Shown: positions 4,032 to 55,912 of the stretch, piece after piece
Position numbering within the stretch: position 1 is the stretch's first letter
Layout of the letters: every line of letters begins with the position of its first letter
DNA from: Arenicola marina
Taxonomy: Eukaryota; Annelida; Polychaeta; Arenicolidae
Assembly: GCA_964019135.1 (NCBI GenBank)
Contig: OZ025253.1
Coordinates: 37,808,548 to 37,872,547, forward strand
Direction: 5' to 3'
DNA length: 64,000 nt
The notes under the pieces: generated by a model
What the model saw: the letters and a program-made list of their open reading frames with translations, nothing else
What the model was told of the DNA's origin: nothing
The model's database searches: none
Position numbers and translations under genes: made by a program

Positions 4032-4148
4032 CGAATCCTTGCACCAGTGAGCCCTGTCAAAATGGGGGGAGATGCACCATCAGAAGGGGAGAAACCAGCT
4101 ACAGTTGCATATGCAACGCCAGATGGACCGGAGAGATTTGCGAGCAGG
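4032..4148 (+). CDS. EGF exon 1
   Basis: A 117-nt exon encoding a complete six-cysteine EGF domain with C1-C2 loop CTSEPC (O-glucose motif) and C2-C3 loop CQNGGRC. The Arg before C3 means there is no O-fucose site. The acceptor is TTTTGCAG at 4031 and the donor is CAGG|GTGAGT. This is the first exon of the gene that I can see; its phase-1 start requires an upstream exon. The following 1.1-kb intron (4149-5273) shows nothing recognisable. Confidence 0.9.
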
Positions 4149-7100
4149 GTGAGTAAATCCGCCATGGGCAGATCCAGAATCATGATCCAGAAATGACGGC
4201 CTTCTGGGACGTGTTCAGGATTTTGGGCGATTCTGGAGGGTAGGTGGTCGTGGGGGGTAATTGGGTTGGGGGGGGCGGCAGAACAACAGAGCGGGCGACG
4301 CTTTGTCAAACAAGGTGATTAAAATGTAATCTCAACTCCATGGTTCAATATATTATTCTCGGAATCCATCTTTCCGCATAAGGCTATATATCAATATTGA
4401 TCAGCAGCTAATGGATTGGTAAGTTGTGCGCAGGAGTCTTCGATGGCTTAAACACGCTAATTGCCATCTGAAAACACATCACAGAATCGTCGATCATCGT
4501 AATGAATGTGTTCCAACGCGTACTAACTGTACACCGTACCTACCGAACCACTATGCCTCCGCGGCGGTTATATAGGGTTGTTCCATGGTGAATACCACCA
4601 ATTTGATGGGTTGATTTGTGGCCATGTTCAATCGATGAGGTTATGTTAACGATAGTGCTCAAGAGCGGAGCAGTGCCATATATATCAACACCCGTATAAT
4701 CATCGATGCCAGAGCAATCCAAAGCTGATTCCTTCCATTTACATAAAAATAAAAATTCAGGCATTTTAATTTCAATGCTTCATGTCATCCTCCTGAATCT
4801 GGACATCAACACCATACTGGTAGTATACACATATTGAGTTGTAAAAGAATTGAGCCTATCTGCTATATCAAGAACAATACATGCATATTTCTGGATTCTG
4901 ATGAAATGGTCAAATTATGAATCATCAATGGCCGATACCAAAGATTTTGCATATAGTTGTACTGAATTACATATAGGGCCGACAATGGTAGCGTTCAACA
5001 TCTTGTGACGTAATGATAGACTTACGTTAATAGCCCGTTAGTTCCACTCAGTTCTTAACTCGGGCTAATTCACGGTCCAGTACCTTTACTATAAATGTAT
5101 ACTAATACATATATTAAATGTACAACAAAATCACTCGTTGTTTTTCTGCGCATCTAATACTAAATAAATGATATTGTTCGGGTATCCCATGTTGAGTTTC
5201 TTTGGTTATTTGACACGTATAACACACATTTTGTATGATATTATCTTGTTATTATTTATCTCGTTTGTTTCAGCCCTGTCTGACGAGAACCCATGCGACA
5301 GCTCCCCGTGCTTTAACGAAGGCTCGTGCGTGCGAGATGTGGCGGACCTCTACCATTGCGAATGCCTGTTCAACGCCACTGGGACCTTCTGCGAAACAGG
5401 TGTGTCCATATTTGCCGGGGTGTCTATATAGATGCGAAACAGGTGTGTCTATATTTGCCGGGCAGTCCATATATATGCGAAACAGGTGTGTCCATATTTG
5501 CCGGGTTGTCCATATATATGCGAAACAGGTGTGTCCATATATATGCGAAACAGGTGTGTCCATATCTGCCGGGGTGTCTATATATATGCGAAACAGGTGT
5601 GTCCATATATATGCGAAACAGGTGTGTCCATATATATGCGAAACAGGTGTGTCCATATCTGCCGGGGTGTCTATATATATGCGAAACAGGTGTGTCCCCA
5701 GCGTCATGTCTTGCCTTGATATTTACTTATATTTACTATATACAGGATGACACTGCGTTTATGTAAATGGCAAAGACGAACCCCGGTGGGAGGAGAGGCA
5801 CTTAATACATAGCTAGAGTTCGGAGGGTATGTTTTTTTTCCCAGTCTCACCGCCTTAGGAACTACGTAATATAGCGTCACAGTGTTCCAGGCAGGCCTGT
5901 TTCGTTTATTCGTGACCGTATATGGGTATCTTTTTATAAGAATCGGTCGTCGTTCTCCACTAATGGCATCACTGGGGGGTCATGATGCTACTACAATACG
6001 GTTTCATCATACCATTGCAATATGGAGTCGCCGGCGCAGTAAATCAGTTGGCAGTCCAGGCCATGCCGCACTGGGATCCTCCCAGTCCACGCACAGATAA
6101 CTCGTCTGAAGCGTGACAGATTGGTCAAAGGTTGAACGCTAATCGTTTTCTAAGGGCCTGAAATACTTCTTTCTGGAGACATGACAATAGGGCTGTACAG
6201 TCACTACGGTATTCTTCTCGAGACTCCACGAGACAGGGATACTTATGCTCTACGTCAATGGCTAGTATCAACGGCCCGTACGTGCTGCCTACCTTCCGGT
6301 TGTTTGCCTTCACTCACTCGCTAAAGCTGTCATTGGATGCACAACTATAACCACTTAAGTTCTGTGCATATCAGAATTGTAACCACCCGAGTATTTATAT
6401 AATATATGAGCGGTTAGCCAGTTCATGAACCAAAATGCGGTTGTCTTATGAGTGACTGTCAGTGTCAGGCGATCTAATGGGCTGCGCGGGAATAATCATT
6501 ACGACCCGCATGTCAGCGCGCGGTAGCTATGGTTACTTTTTATATGAACAGACCAGGCGAGAACAATGTTGTTCCATTTGTCGCAGAAATGTAAACATTG
6601 ATGATTTGCCTCAAAATACAACGCTTCCAACGGTCTCATCGCACGGAACACATGCATTATGAAGCGATACATGTCCTATATTTAACTATATTATGATTTT
6701 ATAGTTGGGAACGTTGACTAAAATGCGTGCACGCCACGCAGCTGTAGCAAAGCGCATGCATGATGCGCACTCGTTCTTAAAGAGCACGTGTTTTTTTTTG
6801 TTGGTCCCCAAAGGACCTAAACCGGAAATAGAACCCGCGAGAACTGTACAGCCCTATTGGAATGGCCTCAATACGACGCTAAATTTTTTGTCGCCATTTG
6901 GTGATTTAGTGTATTCCACCCAGCTCAGGCCATAGAAGTTAATAGGATCCTAATTTTAACCACAGTCGTTTTTTTGCGGTCATTCCAGTAAGGTCTTTAT
7001 ACACCATATATTCACGACGTTTTCGTAGTTTCCGATTGCATGTAAACACAACGCGGTTTCCGGTTTTACAAATGTCGCTTAGAGTCGCTAATACGTCACT

Positions 7101-10100
7101 CGGGGCTTTAGAGACATCCTTGGGTCATGTCTATAGGGAGGCGCTATGGAACGGATTTGCGTTATATATAGGTGAGGTAGTATTGAAATAAAGCAGATGG
7201 GTACAGGATGGGTGGTGATGAGAGAGAGAGAAAGAAATCGCCCTCCCCCCTGCCCCCTGGATCCGCCTCTGGATTGTTATAACAATCCATTTATAGATAC
7301 AGCTAAAGTCGTAGGTGGTATGATAATCGCCATCCTAATCTGAATCCTTCCGAGGCTCAACCATGGATCGAGTGGTTAGCACGAGAAAGGTTAGTGGCTG
7401 ATGCTAGAGGTTAGGGTCCTTACAAAGCTATGAAGCACTGCACATTCACGGGAAAGGTCAGGTGCTGTTACGCACTTTATTGATACGAATACATAACATG
7501 CACTATATATACACATGTTTATATCATTATATCACATCTATTACACTGATAGATTGGCATCAAATGGCTTTAAATCACACGCCATATAGATGAGTCGCGC
7601 TGACACTCATTCACAGCGATGTTGCTTGTTCGGGTTCACTCTAATCGCTTCCAATCAATAGGTGTCAGTGAAGGGAGAGAGTCTATTGATTTTTGCATAA
7701 CGTAAAGGGCAAATGACCATGGCGCCGCTGGCCAATATTAGGTCAGAAACATTTGCCCGGTAATATATCCTCACAGGCGACTTCAATACAGCAATTAGCC
7801 CGGTGTAACATAAGTGCGTTTATCGCCTTTTGATTAAACGCCGCGAACGTAGGGTGCGGCAATGTTGTGCTGCAGAAATGTTAATGATCAGCAATCAAAT
7901 ATATCCCCATCGACTTTAAATAAATGTGTCTGTGGCGGGATTGCCGACTTCATACCATCTACTGACTGATTCGCTATATCAATGCGGCAAAGCGACCAAT
8001 TTCATTGCTGGCTGGTTAACTTTTTGCTCCTCAGTCACAAACATCAATTTTTAAGCTCAGAATCTTTCGAAACTACGCCCACATTGTGAGCCATATGACC
8101 ATATGCCAATTAGTAAACTTTGAAACTTTGGGGTGTTTGATAACGTAAATTTGATTCGGTGTGGTCTCAGTTGACGTTTCGTGGTCCAGTTTAAACCCCA
8201 CGTATGCTATGCCTGAATCCTAATTTGCCCAATGATTGGGACGCAGTTTGGGAACACACCCTTAAATTGTGTCATTAAATACATACCATGCAACCTCAAC
8301 ATCAAAACCTATCTATTTTTATGCGTATGTATGTTTTCTAGCTGTGGTTTATGCGTATGCATGCTTTTTAGCTGTTATTTATATGTCTGACATGTTCCTT
8401 CTTTTCTTCACAGACTACGACCCGTGTGATAGCAATCCTTGCCAGAACAACGGGGAGTGTGTGGTGGAAGAACTTGATTACAGTTGTCAGTGTTCGGACT
8501 ACTTCGAGGGCGAATTGTGCGAAAGAGGTGCGCAAGAGGCGTTATCATTTGTAAACTATATACGAAAGCGCTTTCTGTGTCTGTCCTTTCGGGGGTAGAG
8601 GTTGAGGAGGTAGGGCTCATAATTGCCTTTTTAAAATCCATGATGCACTCCAGCTATCAAATAACATTCCTGGAATGTTAGGCAAACCTTTGCCCACAGA
8701 TAGGAGAACGTTCCGAGGACGTTCCCTGACTTTTTCTGACGTTGTGTAAACGACCGCATAGCGTTATGGCTAACGTTCTACAAACGTTCAGTGGTTTCAT
8801 GTAATCATAATATTTTGCAACCTTCATACAACGTTTTTTATGGTAACTAAACAGAAGGTTCTTAGGAAGCCACGTTATAAAATTAATCACGGAATCAGGA
8901 GTAACTTTCAAGTAGCGTTAGCGGAATGCTAGGTGTTAGCTGGGGTCGATATCTAACTTCCGTTCTAACATCAATATAGGTGCTGCAATCTGACAGCGAT
9001 AAAATGATACTGAGATAATGATTATTCGAGTATGGTCTAGTGGGTATCATATCTAACCCCTCTTTCAGCAATCTTGATTCTTGTCCTTTCAGCCATCACT
9101 TATAATTCCCATCAACCAGGAATTGCATTATGTGGCAACACTTTTGGCAGGATTGTTGTGGATGAAACTAATCACGAATTCATTATTTCACTATTCACGT
9201 ATTCATTAATTCACTAATCAAGAATTCGAACTAAGGTAAGTTACTTAATATATTAAGGCCTATCTTTCAAAGATATTGAAATCATATGGGACATAACGTT
9301 TCTTTGTCAGATGTTGATCCCTGTCAAAGTGGACCTTGCCTGAATCGTGGCACATGCACTCGTCTAGAGGGATTGGACTTCAATTGTACCTGCAATGTCT
9401 GGAGCGAGGGCGATTTATGCGAGAAAGGTAAATCGATATGCCCAAATATGGATTTTTGTGTCATCCATTTGGAATGTAATATAATGGCAGGATTGTTTTA
9501 CAATTGCAACTACTATTGTTAGGGGGAAGGGGGGTGCAAGGAGTAATTTCGTTCCTCCGGAATGGCTTTACATTCCACTGAGTGAGGCAAATGATTCTTC
9601 GTGAACTGGGAATGGAGTGGAAGCTGATAGTCGTGATCAAACATTTTCATTAATAGTTAACGGAGAATGTTAATATTAAATAACCGTGAATGGGAAATCG
9701 TCAAAATATGTCATGTATCCGCAACTTCCATTGTATGCGGGTAATTCATCGTGACCTGGGAATAAAGAAATTCAGTCCCCCCCCCCCAGTGTCCGTGCAC
9801 GGCAGATGACAACCATTGTTCCCTTACCACAGTCAGTATAGACCACACCTTCCTCTAACAACAACCAGTGTTCACTTACCACAGTCAGTACAGACCACAC
9901 CTTCCTCTATCAGCAACCATTGTTCCCTTACCACAGTCAGTACAGCCCACACCTTCCTCTAACAACAGCAATTGTATCCTTACCACAGTCAGGATAGACC
10001 CACTTTCCTCTCACAAGAGCCACTGTACCCTTACCACAGTCAGTATAGACCACACCTTCCTCTAACAACAGCCACTGTACCCTTACCACAGTCAGTAGAG

Positions 10101-37100: not shown

Positions 37101-40100
37101 TCTGGCAAAGTGTGTGACGTAGGTTCGTATACTCAACCCAGTGTGCATCTATTACGCCTCATGTCGACTCCATCCAGTTTTCTACGAAATATGGAAAGCC
37201 ATGTCGATATGTTTCCGATGAATTATTCGCCTTGCCATGCAGATGGTATGAGCGCGTCTGAGTAACTATCCGTTGTGATTTGGTGAGTCAACCGACCGGT
37301 CCAATTGGTGATTGAAACGCACCAGGATTTTGCCCAGGGCTTTTGCCTGTGCCTTAAAAAATGGTTAACCCTGGAGACAGGATTCCTTTCCAACTTGATA
37401 CTCTCAATTATCGCTACATGATCTGACAGCTGAAAATGCTCTGCACAAGCCTTACTTATTTTTGTACGTGTTATTTATGGCCAATTCAGGAATATGTGCA
37501 GAGATTGTGGGGAAATGGCTTGTCATACATCTTATTTACCGCCTCCAGCGGCTCAGAGTGTCACCACCCTTTCTCTGTCAGACCATGAATGCCAATACAT
37601 TACGTATACTTACTTACGTAGACTGCCTCTTTCCACGTGGGGAATCTAGGATTGTTGAAATCAGTTGTAAATCAAATAACCCACATCCTATAACCATTTG
37701 CGTCATATTTATCCCCCAATAAGATATTTTACACGACACCTGGAATTATTACGTGAAGGAATTTTTATATTATTTTCGATACTGAGGTATCGTGCCTGGT
37801 AACATATATAAACTTATGTACACTATGGGTTGAAATAATATGGGTTGATATGATATCCATTACTGCACCTTATATAGAATCTGATATAAAAATGTAAAAA
37901 TACCATATACAAATAGATGGTATTTCTCGCCCATATATTCTGTACTTTTCATATTTTTTTGGCTTTTGATGTATTTATAATTGTACATACATTCATGAAT
38001 ATTTTTATTTATATATCACTGTATATCATGGATCTTTTTACGAGTCGCATGTGGTTAGATTGAATTAAAATAGCGTCAAACAGTGACATTTTTAGGTAAC
38101 GAAACTAAAAAAAATAAAGTCTTAATGTTATTTTTGTTATATGTGCATAGCAAGATGATATTTTTTGCATATATTTATAAACATACATATATTTACTTAT
38201 CCACTGTATATTACCTTGTATACGTATGCTCACTGGTCTATACTGCATCACCCCACGCCCGAAACAGACAAGTACCCCTGCGCCTCCAATCCTTGCGTTA
38301 AAGGCGAATGTAAATCTTATGGCCGAGGGAAATATTATTGCGCCTGCCCACAATACTTTTATGGCGACGCCTGCGAGCTCGGTGAGTAACAATAATGTAC
38401 CTCTAGGCTTCCGTAGTCTCTTGATTCTGGCTGCTATCTCTGACGTGCAATATTCGTTATGAGGTATTATGTTATGTGCTCTCGTCCCTTCTTCCGTTCT
38501 AGGCATTTCTCAACTAAGTATCGCCTTTAGTGAAAAACATGCTGGTGGGACTATCCTCAAAATGTTTGAGATAGTATGGTGCTTGCTTTTCACTCACTGA
38601 AGCTGTCGGTCTCATATATAGTCTTCGGTGGAGCGCGCTGCATGTGCATGTCATGATTAAATAGCTGATTGTCCTTATTATTTAGCAGCACCACGCCTGT
38701 GTTTAAGCCACCCCTCCCCCAACAATGCCATCATCACACGGACCCGATCGTCAACTGGTAATTTAGACGCGAACGGCTTTAGTTCCTTCACATGGTACGT
38801 GTCAGTGCAAGCTGGGTCCCTGGGATTTGGGTGTATAAGTCAACGGAGCATTAATCCGGTTGTTTTGCGCAGCGCCACCTGTGCGAGAGAGATCTGCTCT
38901 TGTGTTGATTTACCTGATCTGTCGAAAGCGCGCCTCAGCACTGATGATAGTTCAGCACACATCAGTTCTTTGTGTCTCCAGGGGGCACACCCTTTTTTAT
39001 CACGATTTTGTAACATCTGTTATATTTGGATTTTTACATCTTGGATGTACGTACCGACGTTCGCTATCATTTTAAACAACCACTACTCTCCTGCTGTCTT
39101 GAGGGTTTTCCGGGCTAGCAGCTTATTACTACCTATAGAGCGGGCTCTCTGTATATAGCCTCCTGTGCATTACTCTCCTTGCATTGACAATATTTTCTCG
39201 TTTTGCAATATTTTTCCTGACTTTTGTTTTTTTATGAATAATTACCGTAGGGTTTACGACATGCCATTTAAAGAATGTTTACGCAATGCCATTTTTTAGC
39301 CTCTTCACGTTCGTCTCGAAATTATTGTGGCTTCAAGCGATTGCTGAAATGGCACCTATATTTGGCTTAATTCTTCTAAAGATATATATATATGTATAAA
39401 TTGATGTCAATACTTTTTATTTATTTTAACTGACAGTTTATGGCGGGAATCAAACTCTCTATTGTCCCGTATATTGTATGTGCTGTTTTCAACAATAAAG
39501 CTTTGAAATAGGATAACCAAATCAAAAATTGCCCCCTAATTTTTGGATGCATCGTTTCAGAGAAAGATCCTTGTGACCGAGAACCTTGTCAAAATGGCGG
39601 CACTTGTGAGTGGCTAATGGGAACGGAGTTCTTTTGCCATTGCTCCGAGCTGCTAACCGGAAGTCGTTGTCAGACAGGTGAGGGTCGCCAAAATGGGTTC
39701 CATCTTATATGCTGGTGTAGTAAATAATAGGAGTGAGTAATGCGTGAGCTATGCTGAGATGCTGGCTGGAAGCCGTTGTCAGACAGGTGATAGTCGCCAA
39801 AATGGATGCCATCCTTCATGTTAGAGCGCATGAAGTGTAGTAAATAATAGGAGTGAGTAATGCGTGAGCTATGCTGAGGCACTGACCAGACGCAGTGGCC
39901 AGACAGGTGAGGATCGCCAGAATTGGTTTATTTCTCATGTTTGAGCGCACGATTGGTTGCATATTCTGTATATAATTTAATAATGACATTCCATCATAAT
40001 GTCATAATTAGCACTTGGACAAAGATGTAAATATTGACATTCCATCATAATGTCATAATTACCACTCGGACGAAGATGTAATTATTGACATTCCATCATA

Positions 40101-43100
40101 ATGTCATCTTTACCACTCGGACGAAGATGTAATTATTGACATTCCATCATAATGTCATAATTACCACTCGGACGAAGATGCAATTATTGACATTCCATCA
40201 TGATGTCTTATTTGCAACCTTGATCGATTGTATAATTTGGAGGTTAGTCATGGAAACATGACTCCTCCCTTCCTTCATTGTCCCTTCCCGTTTACGCGAT
40301 ATAACACACAGGGGTTTAAAACTTCTTACTTATACTAAAAACACCTATTCCGTGTTGTCGCCTGTCTTGCAGGAATTAACCCGTGTACGAGTGACCCTTG
40401 CCACAACGACGGCAAATGCGTGAGGCAGTCGGGATTATCATACCGCTGTGTCTGCGACAAGGAACACTCTGGGGAGAAATGTGAATCAGGTCAGTGGTCC
40501 CTCGAGGACATCAAGGGGTCAAGTCAAGGCTCAACGGATGAAATAATGTAATGTAAAGGTCATTAGATCGCCATACGGATCACCTTCCGTCATAAAAAAT
40601 ATCGCCGATTCTGTCGCGTGTTTGTTGCGATACAGGGATTCAGCAGTTATAATATTTCTTCGTAGCTATAAGAATATAACCACATTTTTCTCATACATTC
40701 TTTTTGTCCTGTATTGGCGTCAAACCGGCTCCACAAATATCGTGTAAAGGGAATTGCAATATTACTTTCGGCACGTGTTGTATGATTGATAATACTGTAG
40801 TAGCGTAATTGAAATAGTAGCAAACATGTTCCACAATATAAAAAAAAATGTCAATTAAAATATTAATACTTGTCCGAGAGTAATAGGACGGAGAGAACAT
40901 CAACATTGGTAAAATAGACTAGCAATCAGCTTTATCAATAGTACAAGTAGTTGCCTAAATGATAAATAGATTGTGGAAAACTTCGATATCAATTTATAGT
41001 CCAAGAGAAAACCTCAGTATCAATAGTTGTCTAGGAGAAATTGGCTGGAGAAAACATCATTATTGTATAAAATAGTCATGCTGACATTGTGTTTAGATTT
41101 TAGGTTTTAGTTTCATTATCTGGTATATTTGCAGTGATCAACCCGTGCGATATGAACAAGTGTCAGAACAACGCTACGTGCATTTGGACGAGCCAACTAG
41201 ACTTTGAATGTGAATGCAATCCCGGATGGGTCGGCACACTCTGTGGCCTGGGTGAGTACGAGTCGGCACACTCTGTGGCCTGGGTGAGTACGTGTCGGCA
41301 CACTCTGTGGCCTGGGTGAGTACGAGTCGGCACACTCTGTGGCCTGGGTGAGTACGAGTCGGCACACTCTGTGGCCTGGGTGAGTACGAGTTGACCTGCG
41401 GCAACATGTATATTATGTGAACGATAAAAACTGCCAGAGGAGGGGATTATCGATCCATCCATCTATCTATCCCCATCCATCCATTCATCCTTCCATCCAC
41501 CCATCCTTCTATCCACCCATCCATTCCATCCATCCAGCCATCCAGCCATCCATCCATCTATCTATGCCCCATCCATTCATCTATCCATCCATACGTCCAT
41601 CTATACATGCATCCACCCAATCATCCATCCATCCACCCATCCATCTATCTCCCATCCATCCATCCATACATCCATCCATACATCCATCCATACATCCATC
41701 CGTCTATCCACTCATCCATACGTCCATCCGTCCCTCTGTCCACGTCTCGCTCTGCTCCAGAGTACGACCCCTGTCAGAGCCGTCCCTGTCAGCATTCCGG
41801 GACCTGCGTGAAGGATAGCAGTCTGGAGTTCCACTGCGAGTGTACAGAACACTTCGGCGGCACATTGTGTGAAGAAGGTCAGTGCAGTATTCGTGTCTTC
41901 AAACTTACGACGCAACGTGCACCATCATCACTGCCGGGGTCGGCCCGATAGCTCAGTGGGTTAGGACGCTGGCATTCAGCGCTCTGGCCACGTGAGAGTC
42001 TAACGGCACGTGGATCGGTGGTTCGCGCCCCACAGTGACCATGGTTGTGTGGTGGCAGGATAAAGATTCCAGTCTTTCCTCGCAAAGAGTATGGGGTTAC
42101 CGTCTCCCTCACTTCTCCCATTGGCGCAACATGAAAAAAAGAGTAGCTGAAGCGCATTGAATATACAACACACCAACCATCATCACTGCCGTCATCAAAT
42201 TTCAACATTTTAAGTATGAGAATGAAAAGCCATTATCAAACACATACTTCCGCTTCCGCTTTTGATTGTCATTATGATATGGTGGTAGAGAACGGTATGC
42301 CTCCATCCCAGTATCTTAACCCAATCTTCAAAAGAGTATTAAACTTCAAAATACGTTCACATCACCCCAACTAGTAAGGTCGATATGTGACAAAAAACGA
42401 GGCAACACGTAGATAAGGTATTTTCGTTGCTGTTCCGTGTTGGGCGCTGTCCATTTCATGACCCTGGGCGATATTACAGAGGTTAACCCGTGTGACATCG
42501 GTCAGCCATGCATCAACGGCGGAACATGCATCCCGCAGCCGGGGTTGGATTACTACTGCGAATGCCCGGAATACTATGAGGGACGAATATGCGGTACAGG
42601 TGAGAAACGAACAATTTCATTAACTTGGCCTTACTATTAAGCCAATGATTGCTTCAGAGATAAAAACAGATAAAGGCCATGCAATGTTAGTATCCATTGC
42701 TTTACCCAGAGCGCTAGGACCCTATGTTCTCTCTCAATCTATAAATAATCTACATATATATTCATATACCTGGGCGATATGTTACGGTTTATGGTTTAAG
42801 TGATGACGATTATCAGTCTGTAGGTTCAGTTCTTATTATGCAGATAGAAATCGTTTTTTAGTTGTTACAGCGCTGCATCACTTTATATAAAATACGGATT
42901 GAGAACATAAACCGAGTATATGTTACGTGAAACATTTGTTTCCGTACGGCTAACACACGGATGGAGTGAACTTGTATCTTTGTATTGTCGAGTTATAGTT
43001 ACGTATACTTGCAATATAGCAATATTAAACATGGCGTCCTGCATAACATCCGGTGCTCCTTTTTTTGTTTTCAGATTACTTTGTGATATTTCTATTTATG

Positions 43101-46100
43101 TAACATCGATTAGATTTAGAACATAGTCGTGGGCGGATTGGGCGTAGAATTGCAACCCATCGACTTTTACCCATTGATTTTCCTTTCATATTTACTTTTT
43201 TATGTTTTTGTTTTTTGTTTTTCCCGGTGTGTTGTATGATAGTGACCTTTATCTAGGCAAAATATGGTATTCTTTTACTCTGATTCTAAACGTCTCAGCA
43301 CCATTTTGATCTGCAACTTCTCTTTGATATCCTGATTGTTTCATATTATAAACTTTGATAAATGTTGTTTTTGTTTGTATGAGGTTCACTATGCCATATA
43401 TTGGACAATGGAAACTCTCTTTCCATGAATGAGTACGTTCATGGATATTACATTACTGGTTGCCAATGTTATCACCAATTATCACAGATTTAGATATAGA
43501 GTTTCATAAGTTTTTTTTGTACCCACTCTATCCGTGATTGTCTGTAGTCCTTTACTTGGAGACCCGTTGTCTGGGTCAACTTTTATCAATTCCGTATCCA
43601 ATTTCCTTTAATAAATGCAAAAATCGTAGTTAATGCAGAGGAGGTAAGGAATCAAAATGAAGCGATCGTCAGGTACGATGCATTGTAAATTTAGCTTTAG
43701 TCGTTTGCTGTCAATATTTGTATCTAAACTAGTTAATTATTATATGAAAACATCATACTTGCAATCGAAAGGGTAAGAAAAAACAGTTTTGTTGATTGGT
43801 GGTTTCAAATACTTTCTCCGAGAACTTACATATTATATATCAGGTTCTGAAGGAATGGCCATATTTATGTCATCTGCCGTCTCAATTTATGATAAATATA
43901 TGTGTATATAATTATGAGTGAGTCTGCCATTAAATATTTAAATAGTTGTTATATCACGTATCGGCCAATACGATCCTGCCACTCTAAATCACATGTATAC
44001 AAACATGACAAGTTCTACTGTAGTAATAAGAGAATGCCATAATAATTCATGAAAAATTGAATTTTTAGATTTGTATTTAGATGTTTTGCATAATTTCATA
44101 CATGTGACTCTCCATCTTATCACGATGCAACGCGTTTGGTTAATCATTTGGTACAAATTACCGTTCTTTAAATGAGACACTATAAAATGATTACGACTGC
44201 ATATTGGTGTAACTATGTGTAATTTATACTATTTCTGTCTGACTAAACACAGAATTAGACCCTTGTGACGTGAATCCGAACGACGCAGTGTGTCAGCATG
44301 GGGCGACGTGTGTCCACGGAGACGGATACACCATCCAGTGTATATGCAACCAATACTTCACCGGAGACAAGTGTGAAATACGTAGGTTAAAATATACATT
44401 ATATACTGATACATAATATATACGTTAGGATTTCCAGGGGCAAGTGGGAGCCGCTCGATAGCTCAGCGGGTTAGAGCGCTCGCATTGAGTGCTCTGGTCA
44501 CCTCAGAGCCTAACGGCACGTGGATCGGTGGTTCGCGCCCCGTTGTGGCCATGTCTGTGTGGTCGCCGGATAAAGATCCCAAGCCTTTCTTCGCAAAGAG
44601 TAGGGGATTACCCCGGGGGACATATCTCCTCTCTTCCCTTGTTTCTCCCATTGACGCGATATGACCCGGATTAGTTAAAGCGTTTTGAATATACAACCAA
44701 CCTTTCAGGGGAAAGTTTTTCGACATCCAATAGGCACGGATCTACTGGTGTGTCTTGTTGGGACTGGTCACGCCCCCCCCCCCCCCCCCACCTCCCAATC
44801 TCCCTCGACTTGAAATTGCAAATTATGGGTCAATACGACGCATAGCTTCGTGACCTAAAGAGTTACGTATAACTTCGGCATGCTCTGCCACACCAGTGAA
44901 TCGTTTCACTCAGAGCTATGGGCTCGCAACCCTATATATCCATTACATGTCAAATTACCTATTGATCGAAAAATTATTTTATGAGCAACGAACATCAATG
45001 TTGTTTTGGTCCTGCCATCTTCGTGAAATTTCTGCTTACGTATATATATATATATATCTATGATATTGCATTAAGCGGTGTTTACTGCACACAAACGTTC
45101 CTTCTCACCTGTCGTTGTTCAAAAGCGCACAATGAACCTGTATATAAGTTTAGTGACGCCCCTAAGAGATTAAGTGTTGGTTTATTTGTGCCTTGAATTA
45201 ATGACAATATTTAACGCTGTCTGCTCTGCCCACCAACCAGCGGTTGATCCTTGTGACAGCGACCCTTGCCAAAACGACGCTAGCTGCGAGGCTGTGGTTG
45301 GCTTCGACTACCGGTGCACATGTACCGAGGGATATACGGGAAAGTCATGTGAGACAGGTGAGAGAGCCTAGCTGTGGGCTCGTTTTGTTTTAAGGCGGCG
45401 TCTCTGTTTGCCTGCCCTGAGCCGATTATCGTTTTCGTGTCCGCGCCAAAACATACATGTCGCTTTGACATAGTATTTTTTGCTGTTATACTATGGAACA
45501 CCAAGGTTTGTTTCCGTTGCCAATGTGTTACACATGTCCACAAATCAATCGATAAGCAAGAAAAAATATTGATAGATTGCTGTTGATATTCTATTTAAAG
45601 CGATTTGAAGAAAAATGTGGGGTATAATGTGGGCCGAGTTTTTACCTCATGATGGTTATTGATCTGAACTGTTGCTCAAAATAGTTCTTCAATGTCGATT
45701 CAAACGAGAGAGTTTAGCCCCGATTTTGCGAATGGTATTACTCGTTCCGCCCCGCCCTGCTCATCTGATATATCCAACTCCAACTTATTAAACTATATTC
45801 GTCGAAAAGAAGATCGCACGTGAGAGCCAAGTTGATTTCATCATCCGTTGAAACGAATCGCTGTTTCTCTTCCAGAACTTAATCCATGCGATTCGTTGCC
45901 ATGCCAACATGCTGGCACGTGCACTAAGACGCAGGGCTTGGACTTCGGATGCGTGTGCACAAAATACTTCACTGGAGACCTTTGTGAAGAAGGTGTGAAT
46001 AAGTGAATTAATGAGAATGTAATATTATTATTGCTATATAATTAAGTCATCTGGGAAAAGATAAATTTGCAAATATACAATATGCTTTCACAATAAATTG

Positions 46101-55100: not shown

Positions 55101-55912
55101 TTTACTGTTGGCAACAACCCCTGTGGTCCTATATTCCCCCGGTCGACACTTTTTTGCAAATCGTATTTTGTTATTCTATGAAGAAGGAGAAGATCAGTTC
55201 AGGAGGCCCCAGCGGTTTGTATGTATACATTACATTTGTTGAAATGGCAACTTTAAGTCGTCAGTCTTACATGTCTTTGCAGACCCTTGTGACCGGAATC
55301 CCTGCTCTGATGGCGGCGTCTGCTACTCGGATGGTGACGAATACTTCTGTCTGTGTCCCTTCGGACTGCGAGCCACGTACTGTGACACAGGTCAGCAAGT
55401 CCTTCTTTGGCCGCCGCGGAAACGAAACTAATCCAGCATGATTTTGACCAACGAAACTTGACCAGGGGGTCATCCACTATAAGATTTCATAACTTTTGCT
55501 CGTAGAATTGAAAAAAAATAATTGCCGGCACGGTAAATATATGGTAAACATGCATGATTTCTAATAATATTGCCAGAATATAAATTCACGAAGATGGCTG
55601 TACTCCAATAATCGCGGTATAACGCTTATTTTTCCGTTGCTCGTAAAATAGGATCTATCGTTAACCTAACATGTAAAGGATAGTTGCGAGCTCGTAACTC
55701 TTAGTCAGACGATAATATAATAACATTTGATCCTTTTATACCTACATTAATGGTCTTCTCATGGTTTCTTCTTTGCAGAGTTTCTGCAGAATTCATCCCC
55801 AGAAATCAAATCTTTGCTAGATTTTACTTCACTCCATGTGGTGTACATACATTTGCTGGCGGCAGTACACCTGTTCAGATTCGTATGGTGGAGTTCGTCA
55901 CTTCAAGTCTGA
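4032..55912 (+). CDS. Multi-EGF-repeat gene, 24 EGF exons plus a terminal exon (overall span; 5' end missing)
   Basis: I do not recognise this as a named gene. It encodes a chain of EGF-like domains, expected to be extracellular and disulphide-bonded. Twenty-four exons each encode one domain; all start and end in phase 1, with AG acceptors and GT donors that keep the frame. The usual pattern is C-x4-C-x5-C-x(8-12)-C-x-C-x8-C. The D-x-D/N-E start and the Asx/aromatic pattern of calcium-binding EGF domains are absent, so these look like non-calcium EGF repeats. Seventeen domains carry the POGLUT1 motif C1-x-S-x-P-C2 and 13 carry the POFUT1 motif C2-x4-S/T-C3, as in Notch. No other domain type is visible between the repeats. 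The signal peptide and 5' exons are not seen, and the membrane anchor, if any, depends on the last exon. An assembly artefact is unlikely because frame and phase hold across all exons. Possible kin are Notch-like, fibropellin-like or other lineage-specific EGF proteins. Confidence 0.85.
5274..5399 (+). CDS. EGF exon 2 (donor site tandemly amplified)
   Basis: A 126-nt exon, 42 residues, with loops CDSSPC (O-glucose motif) and CFNEGSC (O-fucose motif) and an N-glycosylation sequon NAT before C6. The acceptor GTTTCAG ends at 5273 and the true donor is ACAG|GTGTGT at 5399/5400. The last 9 exon bases plus the start of the intron are repeated eight more times downstream. Reading through the true donor meets a stop at 5429-5431, so only the first donor gives a usable message. 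The apparent signal peptide upstream in the same frame is the translated polypyrimidine tract of the intron. Confidence 0.9.
5388..5698 (+). repeat. Minisatellite spanning the 5' splice site of EGF exon 2 (43/25-bp units, 9 donor copies)
   Basis: The junction sequence GCGAAACAG|GTGTGT occurs at 5391 (the real exon end), 5434, 5477, 5520, 5545, 5588, 5613, 5638 and 5681. Spacing is 43 bp for full units and 25 bp for units that lack the TTTGCCGGGGTGTC-like part. The first unit overlaps the coding exon, so the array grew from the exon/intron boundary. Every copy keeps an intact-looking donor. The open frames across both strands here come only from the repeat period. Confidence 0.95.
5699..8413. 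other. Intron between EGF exons 2 and 3, no gene seen
   Basis: About 2.7 kb of intron. Short open frames at 5882-6100, 6462-6662 and 6705-6935 have no recognisable motif. A short GA run lies near 7220. No transposon ends or EGF exon were found on either strand. Confidence 0.55.
8414..8527 (+). CDS. EGF exon 3
   Basis: A 114-nt exon encoding a complete EGF domain with C1-C2 loop CDSNPC (O-glucose motif) and C2-C3 loop CQNNGEC (no O-fucose site). The acceptor is CTTCACAG ending at 8413 and the donor AGAG|GTGCGC is weak at +4. The upstream in-frame hydrophobic reading from 8269 is pyrimidine-rich intron, not a signal peptide. The following intron (8528-9310) is unremarkable. Confidence 0.9.
9311..9427 (+). 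CDS. EGF exon 4
   Basis: A 117-nt exon with loops CQSGPC (O-glucose motif) and CLNRGTC (O-fucose motif) and a possible N-glycosylation sequon N-C-T at C4. The acceptor TTTGTCAG ends at 9310; the donor is AAAG|GTAAAT. It is the last exon before the giant 27.6-kb intron, which is filled by the 52-bp minisatellite beginning about 380 bp downstream. Confidence 0.9.
9515..9785. repeat. Dispersed repeat fragment (related copy near 58383-58500)
   Basis: Between exon 4 and the minisatellite there is a stretch containing TTTCGTTCCTC, then CTTCGTGAACTGGGA, ending in a C homopolymer at about 9777-9787. The same words in the same order recur around 58400-58480. This points to an interspersed element of unknown class, possibly a non-autonomous transposon; no ends were defined. 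Confidence 0.4.
15592..19851. repeat. Higher-order repeat, about 1.6-kb blocks within the minisatellite
   Basis: The same series of variant units recurs with offsets of 1638 bp (15592 to 17230; 16186 to 17824; 16566 to 18204), then 1586 bp (17230 to 18816) and 1534-1378 bp (17824 to 19358; 18204 to 19582). The shrinking offsets match loss of whole 52-bp units from later copies. A related block reappears around 23985-24634, and a partial one lies at 9868-10065. Confidence 0.85.
20521..25440. repeat. First, diverged copy of the 5-kb higher-order block
   Basis: The diagnostic unit with TATTGACCACACC followed by TTTCCTGTAACAACAG occurs near 20550-20640 and again from 25461. Other markers (GACGACACCTTCC, the TCTCCCTAAGAACAACCAG units) recur about 4.93-5.04 kb later. 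This copy is rearranged and more divergent than the next two. Confidence 0.65.
25441..35755. repeat. Head-to-tail near-identical duplication, 5,260-bp offset
   Basis: 25441-30700 is repeated immediately as 30701 to about 35755. Reading across at an offset of 5,260 bp shows near-identity, with only a few single-base changes (for example near 25695/30955 and 27571/32831). At 29181 versus 34441 the second copy lacks 205 bp (about four units) present in the first, after which the offset is 5,055. The similarity breaks just after about 35755. This looks like one recent unequal exchange, or possibly an assembly duplication. Confidence 0.9.
36598..37005. other. 3' end of the giant intron, with a poly-G run
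   Basis: Unique sequence between the array and EGF exon 5. It contains an uninterrupted run of about 19 G at roughly 36892-36910, on the coding strand about 100 bp before the splice acceptor. No exon was seen. Confidence 0.6.
37006..37122 (+). CDS. EGF exon 5
   Basis: A 117-nt exon, the first after the 27.6-kb intron. Loops are CESNPC (O-glucose motif) and CVNNGNC (no O-fucose site), with an N-C-T sequon at C3. The acceptor is TTCATTCCAG ending at 37005 and the donor GTAG|GTTCGT is weak at +3 to +6. Exon phase matches the exon before the satellite, so the array does not break the gene. The next intron (37123-38267) is AT-rich without a recognised element. Confidence 0.9.
38268..38381 (+). 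CDS. EGF exon 6
   Basis: A 114-nt exon with C1-C2 loop CASNPC (O-glucose motif). The C2-C3 loop is one residue short (CVKGEC), so the O-fucose spacing is lost. The acceptor is GAAACAG at 38267, with a poor polypyrimidine tract, and the donor CTCG|GTGAGT is strong. The downstream intron (38382-39560) shows no recognisable element. Confidence 0.88.
39561..39677 (+). CDS. EGF exon 7 (3' end duplicated downstream)
   Basis: A 117-nt exon with C1-C2 loop CDREPC, in which Ser is replaced by Arg so the O-glucose motif is lost, and C2-C3 loop CQNGGTC (O-fucose motif). The acceptor is GTTTCAG at 39560; the donor is ACAG|GTGAGG. The 3' part of the exon and its donor recur twice in the following intron. 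Reading through the true donor soon meets a stop. Confidence 0.9.
39640..39925 (+). repeat. Tandem copies of the 3' end and donor of EGF exon 7 (about 109/120-bp period)
   Basis: The exon end GTCGTTGTCAGACAG|GTGAGG (39663 onward) has related copies at 39771-39790 and 39892-39910, each followed by the same intron-like sequence including TAAATAATAGGAGTGAGTAA. The upstream exon words GCTCCGAGCTGCTAACCGG are recognisable in diverged form in the second copy. These copies are too short and diverged to be whole EGF exons. Confidence 0.9.
39982..40207. repeat. 51-bp tandem repeat, five copies
   Basis: The motif GACATTCCATCATAATGTCA starts at 39985, 40036, 40087, 40138 and 40189, an exact 51-bp spacing; the last copy is partial. 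It lies in the intron between EGF exons 7 and 8 and is unrelated in sequence to the 52-bp satellite. Each unit contains an imperfect palindrome around TGACATTccatcatAATGTCA. Confidence 0.93.
40373..40489 (+). CDS. EGF exon 8
   Basis: A 117-nt exon with loops CTSDPC (O-glucose motif) and CHNDGKC (no O-fucose site). The acceptor CTGTCTTGCAG ends at 40372 and is pyrimidine-rich; the donor is TCAG|GTCAGT. The following intron (40490-41134) is AT-rich with no recognised element. Confidence 0.9.
41135..41251 (+). CDS. EGF exon 9 (donor site tandemly amplified)
   Basis: A 117-nt exon with C1-C2 loop CDMNKC, lacking both the Ser and the Pro of the O-glucose motif, and C2-C3 loop CQNNATC (O-fucose motif that is also an N-glycosylation sequon). 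The acceptor is TATTTGCAG; the donor CTGG|GTGAGT is repeated four more times at exact 32-bp intervals. Using a later donor would add 32 n bases, which shifts frame for the first two alternatives. Confidence 0.9.
41230..41391 (+). repeat. 32-bp minisatellite spanning the 5' splice site of EGF exon 9 (five donors)
   Basis: GTCGGCACACTCTGTGGCCT begins at 41230 (inside the exon), 41262, 41294, 41326 and 41358, each followed by GG|GTGAGTAC. The spacing is exactly 32 bp and copies are almost identical, implying recent growth. The first unit includes the last 22 coding bases. Confidence 0.96.
41448..41740. repeat. CCAT-type microsatellite
   Basis: About 290 bp of interrupted CCAT/CATC tetranucleotide repeats with T and G variants. 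Together with the donor minisatellite it takes up most of the 509-bp intron between EGF exons 9 and 10, ending just before the acceptor. The long open frames through it are low-complexity translations. Confidence 0.95.
41761..41877 (+). CDS. EGF exon 10
   Basis: A 117-nt exon with loops CQSRPC (O-glucose motif) and CQHSGTC (O-fucose motif). The acceptor GCTCTGCTCCAG ends at 41760, immediately after the microsatellite; the donor is AAG|GTCAGT. The next intron contains a young SINE. Confidence 0.9.
41937..42175 (+). mobile_element. tRNA-derived SINE, + strand, with perfect 16-bp target-site duplication
   Basis: The head is tRNA-like with an A box TAGCTCAGTGGG (41949) and a B box GGTTCGCGCCC (42020), followed by a tRNA-unrelated body and a 3' end GAATATACAAC. 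The insertion is flanked by ACCATCATCACTGCCG at 41921-41936 and 42176-42191, an exact 16-bp duplication as expected for LINE-mobilised SINEs. The intact duplication indicates a recent insertion. It lies in the intron between EGF exons 10 and 11, in the sense direction. Confidence 0.92.
42480..42599 (+). CDS. EGF exon 11
   Basis: A 120-nt exon, 40 residues. The C1-C2 loop is one residue longer than usual (CDIGQPC) and lacks the O-glucose motif; C2-C3 is CINGGTC (O-fucose motif). The acceptor is ATATTACAG; the donor is ACAG|GTGAGA. Confidence 0.9.
42600..44252. other. Intron between EGF exons 11 and 12, no gene seen
   Basis: About 1.65 kb of AT-rich intron. It has a plausible acceptor-like tract near 43070 (TTTGTTTTCAG), but no EGF or other domain follows it in any frame. 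No repeat element was recognised. Confidence 0.55.
44253..44381 (+). CDS. EGF exon 12 (expanded first loop)
   Basis: A 129-nt exon, 43 residues, the joint longest of the set. The C1-C2 loop has eight residues instead of four ([10 protein letters not shown]), so the O-glucose motif is absent; C2-C3 is CQHGATC (O-fucose motif). The donor ATAC|GTAGGT ends in C rather than G, so the split codon differs from most exons. The acceptor is AACACAG. Confidence 0.88.
44445..44702 (+). mobile_element. tRNA-derived SINE, + strand, second copy
   Basis: Same family as the element at 41937: A box TAGCTCAGCGGG, B box GGTTCGCGCCCC, shared body through GGATAAAGATCCC and TTCGCAAAGAGTA, and 3' end GAATATACAACCAACC. 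Flanks TTTCCAGGGGCAAG (44431-44444) and TTTCAGGGGAAAG (from 44703) look like a decayed target-site duplication, so this insertion is older than the first. Confidence 0.88.
44768..44790. repeat. Poly-C run
   Basis: An almost pure run of about 20 C lies 470 bp upstream of EGF exon 13. Homopolymers of this length also occur near 9777, 36892 (as G) and 53918 (as G). Confidence 0.85.
45241..45357 (+). CDS. EGF exon 13
   Basis: A 117-nt exon with loops CDSDPC (O-glucose motif) and CQNDASC (O-fucose motif). The C5-C6 segment [10 protein letters not shown] fits the EOGT O-GlcNAc motif, so all three Notch-type sites coincide here. The acceptor is CCAACCAG; the donor is ACAG|GTGAGA. Confidence 0.92.
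45876..45992 (+). CDS. EGF exon 14
   Basis: A 117-nt exon with loops CDSLPC (O-glucose motif) and CQHAGTC (O-fucose motif). The acceptor is CTCTTCCAG; the donor is AAG|GTGTGA. The flanking introns (45358-45875 and 45993-46413) are short and show nothing notable. Confidence 0.92.
46414..46536 (+). CDS. EGF exon 15
   Basis: A 123-nt exon, 41 residues, with loops CDSNPC (O-glucose motif) and CLNDGVC (no O-fucose site) and a C3-C4 segment two residues longer than usual. The acceptor is GTTGCAG. The donor GAAC|GTGAGT gives a C at the split codon, as in exon 12. Confidence 0.9.
46660..46865. repeat. Degenerate short tandem repeat
   Basis: The phrase GGTGTATCTACGTAGCTTTG with GCTGTGTCGTTA appears twice about 48 bp apart. 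It is followed by several diverged copies of a GTGTCTCTATAAAGGTTTTC-like unit. It lies in the intron between EGF exons 15 and 16. Confidence 0.75.
47089..47202 (+). CDS. EGF exon 16
   Basis: A 114-nt exon with loops CLSDPC (O-glucose motif) and CLNDGQC (no O-fucose site). An NYT sequon lies before C4, and the C5-C6 segment [10 protein letters not shown] fits the EOGT motif. The acceptor GGTTTTAG uses TAG; the donor is GTTG|GTAGGA. The next intron (47203-47692) shows no recognised element. Confidence 0.9.
47693..47806 (+). CDS. EGF exon 17
   Basis: A 114-nt exon with loops CESLPC (O-glucose motif) and CMNKGDC (no O-fucose site). The C5-C6 segment [10 protein letters not shown] fits the EOGT motif. 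The acceptor is GTCTCCAG; the donor ACAG|GTGAGT is a consensus site. Confidence 0.9.
47950..47981 (+). mobile_element. tRNA T-arm-like fragment (SINE or tRNA relic)
   Basis: CTGGGTTCGATTCCCGG forms a 5-bp stem around a TTCGATT loop and includes a canonical B box GGTTCGATTCC. No A box or acceptor stem was found at the expected distance upstream, so this is not an intact tRNA gene. It lies in the intron between EGF exons 17 and 18. Confidence 0.45.
48231..48344 (+). CDS. EGF exon 18
   Basis: A 114-nt exon with loops CDSLPC (O-glucose motif) and CENNGTC (O-fucose motif; NGT is also an N-glycosylation sequon). The residue before C1 is Gly rather than Pro (NGC instead of NPC). The acceptor is GCATTCAG; the donor is ATAG|GTTAGT. 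Confidence 0.9.
50342..50593 (-). mobile_element. Possible LINE 3' ORF remnant (Cys-rich C-terminal motif)
   Basis: The minus-strand frame contains [17 protein letters not shown]. This resembles the C-x2-C-x3-C-R/S-x-IGL-x-SH motif that I associate with the C-terminus of some invertebrate non-LTR retrotransposon proteins; the usual His is Phe here. Upstream residues are basic but carry no clear reverse-transcriptase motif. Only a short piece is present, so the family is not assigned. It could also be chance. Confidence 0.3.
51044..51170. repeat. 33-bp tandem repeat, four copies
   Basis: GATTATTGTCACAAGAACAG recurs at 51055, 51088, 51121 and 51154; the last copy has a 3-bp loss. It lies about 170 bp before the acceptor of EGF exon 19. 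Confidence 0.93.
51335..51448 (+). CDS. EGF exon 19
   Basis: A 114-nt exon with loops CLSDPC (O-glucose motif) and CGFQGVC (no O-fucose site). The C5-C6 segment [10 protein letters not shown] fits the EOGT motif. The acceptor CTGTTTAG uses TAG; the donor is GAAG|GTAGGC. An in-frame upstream Met with hydrophobic residues (from 51295) is the translated pyrimidine tract. Confidence 0.9.
51826..51939 (+). CDS. EGF exon 20 (AAG acceptor)
   Basis: A 114-nt exon with C1-C2 loop CAENPC (no O-glucose motif) and C2-C3 loop CQNNAAC (no O-fucose site), so it is the only complete standard-length domain besides exon 24 lacking both. I placed the start after TATCAAG because only this acceptor keeps C1. The alternative CAG at 51841-51843 is also in frame but removes C1 and so would give a five-cysteine domain. 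The donor is ACAG|GTACAG. Confidence 0.8.
52499..52612 (+). CDS. EGF exon 21
   Basis: A 114-nt exon with C1-C2 loop CDYVTC (no O-glucose motif) and C2-C3 loop CRNNGTC (O-fucose motif, with an NGT sequon). The acceptor is TTCTCGCAG; the donor is ATAG|GTATGG. The upstream intron (51940-52498) shows no recognised element. Confidence 0.9.
52659..52690. repeat. Perfect 11-bp inverted repeat (hairpin)
   Basis: TTTGTACCAGC and GCTGGTACAAA are separated by a 10-base loop, 47 bp past the donor of EGF exon 21. It could fold as a stem-loop in the intron RNA. Confidence 0.8.
52749..52822. repeat. Nested imperfect palindrome
   Basis: An outer arm pair GCTCGCAATT/AATTGTGAGC encloses an inner pair CAATTAAC/GTTAATTG. 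It lies in the intron between EGF exons 21 and 22 and could be the core of a short inverted-repeat element. No target-site duplication was identified. Confidence 0.5.
53186..53284 (+). CDS. EGF exon 22, degenerate four-cysteine domain
   Basis: A 99-nt exon, 33 residues, the shortest of the set. It has C1-C2 loop CSSMPC (O-glucose motif), C2-C3 loop CPVSQTC (O-fucose motif), an NIT sequon and C4 in YECDF. C5 and C6 are missing: the exon ends LPDD then the donor ACT|GTAAGT. Acceptor, donor and phase are all intact, so the domain appears to be used but cannot form the standard three disulphides. The missing half does not appear as a separate exon nearby. Confidence 0.85.
53285..54725. other. Intron between EGF exons 22 and 23
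   Basis: A 1.44-kb intron. It contains a G-rich tract near 53910-53930 and a pair of long inverted repeats (53727-53763 and 54188-54226), described separately. No exon was seen; the open frame at 54007-54270 lies inside the inverted-repeat structure and has no recognised motif. Confidence 0.6.
53722..54233. mobile_element. Possible MITE: long imperfect terminal inverted repeats
   Basis: The left arm contains TGTGAGAGCCCAAAAC followed by TTCCGACTACCCAAAACG (53730-53763). The right arm, read on the minus strand, gives TGTGAGAGCCCAAAAC followed by GTCCGACTGCCCAAAATG, with only a few mismatches. The arms are separated by about 425 bp. This is compatible with a short non-autonomous DNA transposon or a large hairpin. 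No clear target-site duplication was found. Confidence 0.6.
54726..54854 (+). CDS. EGF exon 23
   Basis: A 129-nt exon, 43 residues, with loops CLSSPC (O-glucose motif) and CSGSGSC (O-fucose motif). After C6 it carries a few extra residues (DEPVQ) before the donor CAAG|GTACGA. The acceptor is CTGTTTCAG. The next intron (54855-55282) is pyrimidine-rich with imperfect GTGTCGAT-type repeats. Confidence 0.9.
55283..55390 (+). CDS. EGF exon 24 (last EGF domain)
   Basis: A 108-nt exon, 36 residues. It begins directly at the D-P-C of C1, shorter by about three residues at the N-terminal linker than the others. Loops are CDRNPC (no O-glucose motif) and CSDGGVC (no O-fucose site). The acceptor is TCTTTGCAG; the donor is ACAG|GTCAGC. 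Confidence 0.9.
55779..55912 (+). CDS. Probable 3' terminal exon of the EGF gene
   Basis: A strong acceptor TTTCTTCTTTGCAG ends at 55778. In the phase-1 frame the exon encodes a 44-residue tail ending at TGA 55910-55912. The tail includes a moderately hydrophobic stretch around [19 protein letters not shown], which might act as a membrane segment, although it has two His and one Arg. A second acceptor-like TTTCTGCAG 11 bp downstream (55789) would instead give a 50-residue soluble tail ending at TAA 55936-55938. An AATAAA at 56186-56191 is a plausible poly(A) signal. No EGF or other domain follows. Which acceptor is used is uncertain. Confidence 0.55.

Follow-up and report, generated by a model that had tools for sequence, protein, structure and literature searches.

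Mirages are minisatellite-like tandem duplications of exon-intron boundaries found in lancelets. They are described in the globin genes BflGb6 and BflGb9 and in Adh3 (PMC3087553), and also in PGBD5 and troponin C (PMC3902484). As far as the accessible part of the first report goes, either boundary can be duplicated, splicing is seemingly undisturbed in the amphioxus globin and Adh3 genes, and the cause is unclear. Two other systems are similar in part. In intron gain by tandem duplication of AGGT, reported from potato (PMC4974935) and Drosophila (PMC2891723), the duplication carries splice signals as it does here. The introns described below, however, look old (they lie at phase-1 EGF borders), and the duplication lengthens them and creates none, unlike what the available portions of those two papers describe. 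Intron 1 of earthworm metallothionein contains minisatellites (PMC12783039), another example of annelid introns filled by tandem monomers, but in the accessible text of that paper the units are not described as overlapping the donor. A literature search, for which subscription journals were largely beyond reach, found mirages reported from lancelets only and returned no count of donors against acceptors.

Arrays that copy exon-intron boundaries are found in an EGF-repeat gene of the window (the whole stretch of 64,000 nucleotides analysed here, G000:C6:37808548-37872547) and in other EGF genes of the same genome, which consists of 867 Mb in 762 contigs. They are like mirages, to the extent that the lancelet reports are open, in that the unit spans the boundary in otherwise normal genes (PMC3087553, PMC3902484). 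Their spacings of 24-120 bp fall inside the mirage unit range of ten to about 160 bases given in the part of PMC3087553 that was available. In both systems many, not all, copies have intact splice signals (the first twelve copies were scored here). Both boundaries are affected in lancelets and in this genome, here 11 donors and 2 acceptors, while in the window gene only donors are. Unlike lancelet mirages, the present arrays belong to Annelida in the wide sense and not to Cephalochordata, donors stand above acceptors in the counted sample, and one array has at least 60 copies. Judging from the accessible literature, what is new is apparently the phylum; the structure itself is already known from lancelets.

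The annelid placement comes from contig C762, which is mitochondrial and has 15,942 bases. Its COX1 reads well under the invertebrate code, which speaks against the echinoderm code. In an alignment by eye with mammalian COX1, AAA falls on Lys in three of seven cases and AGA on Ser in four of five. The gene order is ND2-COX1-trnN(gtt)-COX2 with ND2 abutting COX1 (trnN was called by ARWEN mode, and ND2 and COX2 were identified by eye). Lumbricus presumably has this order, too. Both the genetic code of the mitochondrion and the order of its genes, read from the sequence, indicate an annelid. A lancelet origin was considered and rejected; the GFP family gave no match, although this is a weak test because it yielded no signal in any part of the genome. 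The order ND2-COX1-trnN-COX2 is also that of Sipunculus nudus, an annelid relative, in the table available from PMC2639372.

The window gene is a multi-exon EGF-repeat gene on the plus strand (4032-55912), which runs from 4032 to about 55910 in 25 exons separated by 24 introns, mostly with one EGF domain per exon. Exons and junctions were taken from the sequence and verified through the reading frame and the cysteine spacing, exon ends being placed by splice consensus and the spacing of EGF domains. The lengths of exons 1-24, from 99 to 129 bases, are all divisible by three; therefore the introns have a common phase, phase 1, which also fits the last exon with a start at 55779. A Cys codon and seven bases precede GT in 22 of the 24 exon ends, and GT follows directly in all 24. 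When joined, exons 1-24 match Pfam EGF (PF00008) with E=4.4e-106, and a hydrophobic tail, as judged by eye, closes the final exon. A profile built from the gene's own EGF exons finds no further plus-strand EGF exons in the 60 kb upstream. tRNA (ARAGORN) and Rfam scans of the window reported nothing. By eye, positions 41940-42060 and 44447-44600 form a similar pair with a tRNA-like start, perhaps a tRNA-derived SINE.

The sequence-only reading had claimed that three of the 24 introns begin with tandem copies of their own 5' splice site, and this holds for introns 2, 7, and 9, with nine, three, and five copies, respectively. The end of exon 2 (5274-5399) is copied into intron 2, where the array (5390-5697, from Tandem Repeats Finder and a copy count) has nine donor copies at spacings of 25 and 43 bp. 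Its first unit consists of 10 exon bases and the intron start, and the junction copied is AAACAG|GTGTGTCC. The end of exon 7 (39561-39677) is copied into intron 7 as three diverged copies (39640-39960) at spacings of 109 and 120 bp, with about 37 exon bases in the unit. Copies 1 and 2 are 80% identical, copies 2 and 3 58%, and copies 1 and 3 59%; Tandem Repeats Finder gives no row for this array. The end of exon 9 (41135-41251) is copied into intron 9 as five copies of a 32-bp unit (41230-41391, 98% match, Tandem Repeats Finder and copy count), which contains 22 exon and 10 intron bases and has an intact donor in each copy. The units are unrelated by eye and their periods differ, again as had been claimed.

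In introns 2 and 9, every copy scores as high a donor as the first one, no more and no less; in intron 7, one of the two later copies does. Each later donor examined (five of eight in intron 2, two of two in intron 7, and four of four in intron 9) would shift the frame or meet a stop. The introns' own acceptors are 509 to 3014 bases away. The test of this gene covered 23 of the 24 donors and the acceptors of 24 EGF exons (those of 23 of the 24 introns and one before exon 1), and it found three donors spanned and no acceptor, in agreement with the claim that no 3' splice site of the gene is affected. For the remaining donor (intron 22) and acceptor (intron 24), Tandem Repeats Finder reports no adjoining array.

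Other repeats exist in introns of the gene away from the splice sites. Intron 4 contains a 52-bp satellite of 520 copies and 26.7 kb (9809-36561, plus strand, Tandem Repeats Finder), by which the intron exceeds 27 kb; its strand asymmetry is strong, with a GC skew of about -0.57. Intron 7 has a 51-bp repeat (39984-40207). For comparison, intron 2 also has a 30-bp repeat (8318-8382) near its acceptor, which stops 31 bp short of it and does not span it. A degenerate (ATCC)n stretch (41449-41733) fills the remainder of intron 9 and stops 27 bases before the acceptor.

Junctions of other EGF genes were examined in the same way. The sample consists of EGF genes only, as 20 tiles of 10 kb and 17 short EGF loci, in total 316.5 kb including the window. 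Six tiles lie upstream of the window, and 14 were picked by EGF matches before the repeats in them were viewed; 17 of 30 short loci were kept because the middle of the other 13 occurs in a tile. A probe of 30 exon and 30 intron bases was compared with the adjoining intron, and at least 8 bases had to match on each side of the junction. No spanning match arises when introns are swapped between sites (20 replicates, similar junctions skipped) or reversed, and therefore the junction copies are real. A first form of the test was rejected: it matched 102 of 234 donors and 82 of 221 acceptors, and most of these matches came from the duplication of complete exons along with introns (C1a, C1b, L004, L025, and C11). 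Swapping introns as a null for that test still left 11-27 donor and 12-22 acceptor matches. Whole-exon-duplication families and a few loci almost without single-exon junctions were left out of the main count and tested apart. With targets kept inside introns, the duplicated-exon families alone give 0/97 donors and 0/102 acceptors. L003, L012, and L016 give 0/3 donors and 0/4 acceptors, and no junction was scored in C12 or L002. In L046-L048, L004, L025, and L049, whole EGF exons are duplicated with introns (on C1 at about 330 bp or multiples), and there are no short boundary arrays.

Donors are spanned by a tandem copy in 11 of 129 cases and acceptors in 2 of 126 (Fisher p=0.019). The asymmetry thus recurs beyond the window gene, but without that gene the counts are 8/106 and 2/102 (p=0.10). 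Note that 23 donors and 24 acceptors come from the window gene and 79 and 76 from one C9 stretch, over half of the sample. When the similar loci L008 and L009 are counted once, the split is 10 to 2 (two-sided sign test, 0.039); splits of 8 to 2 and 7 to 2 give 0.11 and 0.18. A narrower acceptor finder yields 11/129 donors and 1/114 acceptors. Arrays inside exons are found in only one of 165 exons. Equal frequency at acceptors or within exons, which had been named beforehand as speaking against a donor bias, was therefore not observed. Because acceptors are spanned elsewhere, the absence at 3' splice sites is a feature of the window gene and no rule. The sole exon-internal array lies in L040 at about 5633-5667 (C9 stretch, exon start 25614) and has 1.9 copies of an 18-bp unit, a length divisible by three.

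Three of the 11 spanned donors belong to the window gene, one to its minus-strand neighbour, four to C9, and one each to L017, L008, and L009. The minus-strand EGF gene beside the window gene has a 50-bp unit in at least 60 copies (60 were counted in the 3 kb scanned). Units of the four C9 arrays are 52, 45, 61, and 39 bases long. In the similar loci L008 and L009, an intron starts at about 1603 with a 26-bp array that spans the same donor, and the copies counted number 38 in L008 and 48 in L009; these arrays are probably of single origin, one that predates the duplication of the loci and has kept changing since. C14 is a twelfth donor locus, outside the 11, whose 113-bp array is called as four donors and counted once. 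Both acceptor-spanning cases, C9 13384 (47-base unit) and C9 50361 (37-base unit), were read and are genuine. Leaving aside longer gaps at skipped copies, neighbouring copies lie 25-120 bp apart within the window and 24-113 bp apart at the other loci, and the exon share of the unit ranges from 6 to 43 bases (Tandem Repeats Finder). All 12 donor arrays have at least one later copy that scores no lower than the first donor, and in five of the 12 this is true of all copies shown (the first twelve). Broken GTs occur among the copies in L008, L009, L017, C14, and C9 15197. Among the second to sixth donors of each array (or as many as it has), none would give an in-frame, stop-free insertion in ten of the 12 arrays, the exceptions being C9 15197 and L017.

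In the whole genome, a pattern that pairs two EGF-like exon ends, their donors separated by 32-62 bases, is found 118 times on the forward and 242 times on the reverse strand and never when read backwards; these figures are copies, not loci. The starts of EGF exons are too poor in fixed sequence for a symmetrical genome-wide count by patterns. Among the matches listed, C5:16641265-16646552 is a very large array with at least 86 places, mostly every 60 bp, and its unit consists by eye of an EGF domain end and a donor. Also among the matches listed is a 35-base array at C1:52858075-52859550, which may or may not lie in a gene.

Whether donors are preferred by mutation or by survival was examined in 110 introns with both ends known and 61 arrays of period at least 8 (one, exonic, was dropped). 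The sampled introns of this genome are rich in short tandem arrays, which make up 61.6 kb of the total of 116.3 kb. Once the 26.7-kb satellite is left out, the arrays amount to 34.8 kb in 89.6 kb; with the satellite likewise excluded, 1269 of 2756 intron points lie in local copies. In these introns, Tandem Repeats Finder arrays cross eight donors and two acceptors. The intron 7 array, the minus-strand neighbour, L009, and C14 are outside those eight, and the last three lie outside the 110 introns. If seeds fall uniformly, 2.16 crossings are expected per side. The eight at donors suggest a real excess (p=0.0018, or p=0.013 when the window gene is omitted), while the two at acceptors show no deficit. 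For comparison with the 11 of 129 donors, the first unit of an array contains 44 of the 2756 intron points and the last unit 66, the points being non-independent. When whole arrays are placed randomly within introns, 4.5 crossings per side are expected (p=0.09). When arrays may cross the donor and the last 0-60 bases before the acceptor are barred, 5.4-7.5 are expected against the eight seen (P=0.15-0.49), and without the window gene 5.0-7.0 against six.

Array starts cluster near donors, with 24 within about 60 bp and 16 at 60-250 bp (p=0.003). Array ends show no such clustering at acceptors (13 vs. 25, p=0.87). Sixteen of the 24 near-donor starts, however, come from arrays that are wholly intronic, and a check of arrays just inside the intron for a worn-down reach into the exon found none convincing. 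In 50 introns, the largest array lies closer to the donor 27 times and closer to the acceptor 23 times (p=0.67). Going inwards, the density of array ends across the acceptor rises from 0.44 to 1.56 per kb, and that of starts across the donor from 1.77 to 2.27 per kb. The donor looks permeable to arrays and the acceptor less so, although the drop at the acceptor relative to the donor is not significant alone (8:16 vs. 2:11, Fisher p=0.44).

At a probability of about 0.66, we read the arrays as mirages that result from ordinary minisatellite growth filtered by splicing, the donor bias being mainly one of survival and not of mutation. A local tandem duplication may happen to straddle an exon-intron boundary and start a minisatellite. 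When it crosses the donor, the exon and the first donor would stay intact and the intron would merely become longer, provided that the 5'-most donor continues to be used, and definition of the short EGF exon may hold this donor in use. The array could then expand, here from two to at least 60 copies. A duplication across the acceptor, in contrast, would place extra AGs upstream and usually part the branch point and the pyrimidine tract from the real AG, so that it would seldom survive. Duplications inside exons would alter the protein and be purged. Later donors rarely give an in-frame, stop-free insertion, and use of the first donor therefore preserves the protein; from the reading frames, we infer that the first donor is the one in use. 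We prefer the survival filter, since no new mechanism has to be assumed, the acceptor side is accounted for, and the filling of introns by arrays agrees with it.

The sequence-only reading had proposed a mechanism tied to the donor, by which mutation would start duplications at 5' splice sites, for example through co-transcriptional R-loops or U1-bound nascent RNA. The part on which the data bear, the tie to the donor, has some support: donors are spanned more often than acceptors, crossings exceed the uniform-seed expectation, and starts peak within 60 bp of donors while ends have no peak at acceptors. The excess vanishes, however, under the placement models that let arrays cross donors, two thirds of the starts in the peak are those of wholly intronic arrays, which show no reach into the exon where tested, and the largest arrays are not shifted towards donors. 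The exon part of the unit is variable, acceptor-spanning arrays do occur, and the bias loses significance without the window gene. We therefore regard donor-tied seeding as unlikely, and equally doubtful is its narrower form, a duplication process centred on a few dozen bases either side of the 5' splice sites of transcribed introns. If it were true, the donor would be a mutation hotspot that steadily lengthens introns, and exon definition would keep the first of many identical donors in use. The choice between survival and mutation bias hinges on the mode of array growth. A plainer account is chance, by which one repeat-rich gene has ordinary repeats and donors and acceptors do not differ at all. 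The split without the window gene (p=0.10) and the lack of any spanned junction in the duplicated-exon families agree with it, but the full sample (p=0.019) and the swapped and reversed controls, which never yield a junction-spanning match, make it improbable.

Donor copies might instead be retained for a function, either gathering U1 against early polyadenylation of long introns or buffering donor loss. That every donor array has a later copy scoring no lower than its first donor, with all shown copies doing so in five, would fit such a role. Donor-like motifs are not enriched in 33 intron arrays that do not span donors (sense 2, antisense 3, shuffled 1.3), however, and the broken GTs in five loci also count against it, so we consider retention very improbable. 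Least credible is that the introns are newborn through tandem duplication of AG|GT, the Rogers model named in the accessible part of PMC3087553. Introns 2 and 7 do have AG|GT within their units, and intron 9 has GG|GT, but a new intron position is not what is found: introns 2, 7, and 9 share their phase and their placement at EGF borders with the rest of the gene, all 24 introns having one phase and lying between EGF-domain exons, and each of the three has its own acceptor at a distance. By their position, they look older than their arrays.

Under the preferred reading, splicing-filtered minisatellite growth, mirages show one route of intron growth. So far, according to the accessible reports, they were known from a handful of lancelet genes, and their recurrence in an annelid together with a counted asymmetry opens questions. 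Two of them can now be put to the test: are 5' splice sites hotspots of mutation, and by what means does the spliceosome choose the first among up to 60 or more near-identical donors?
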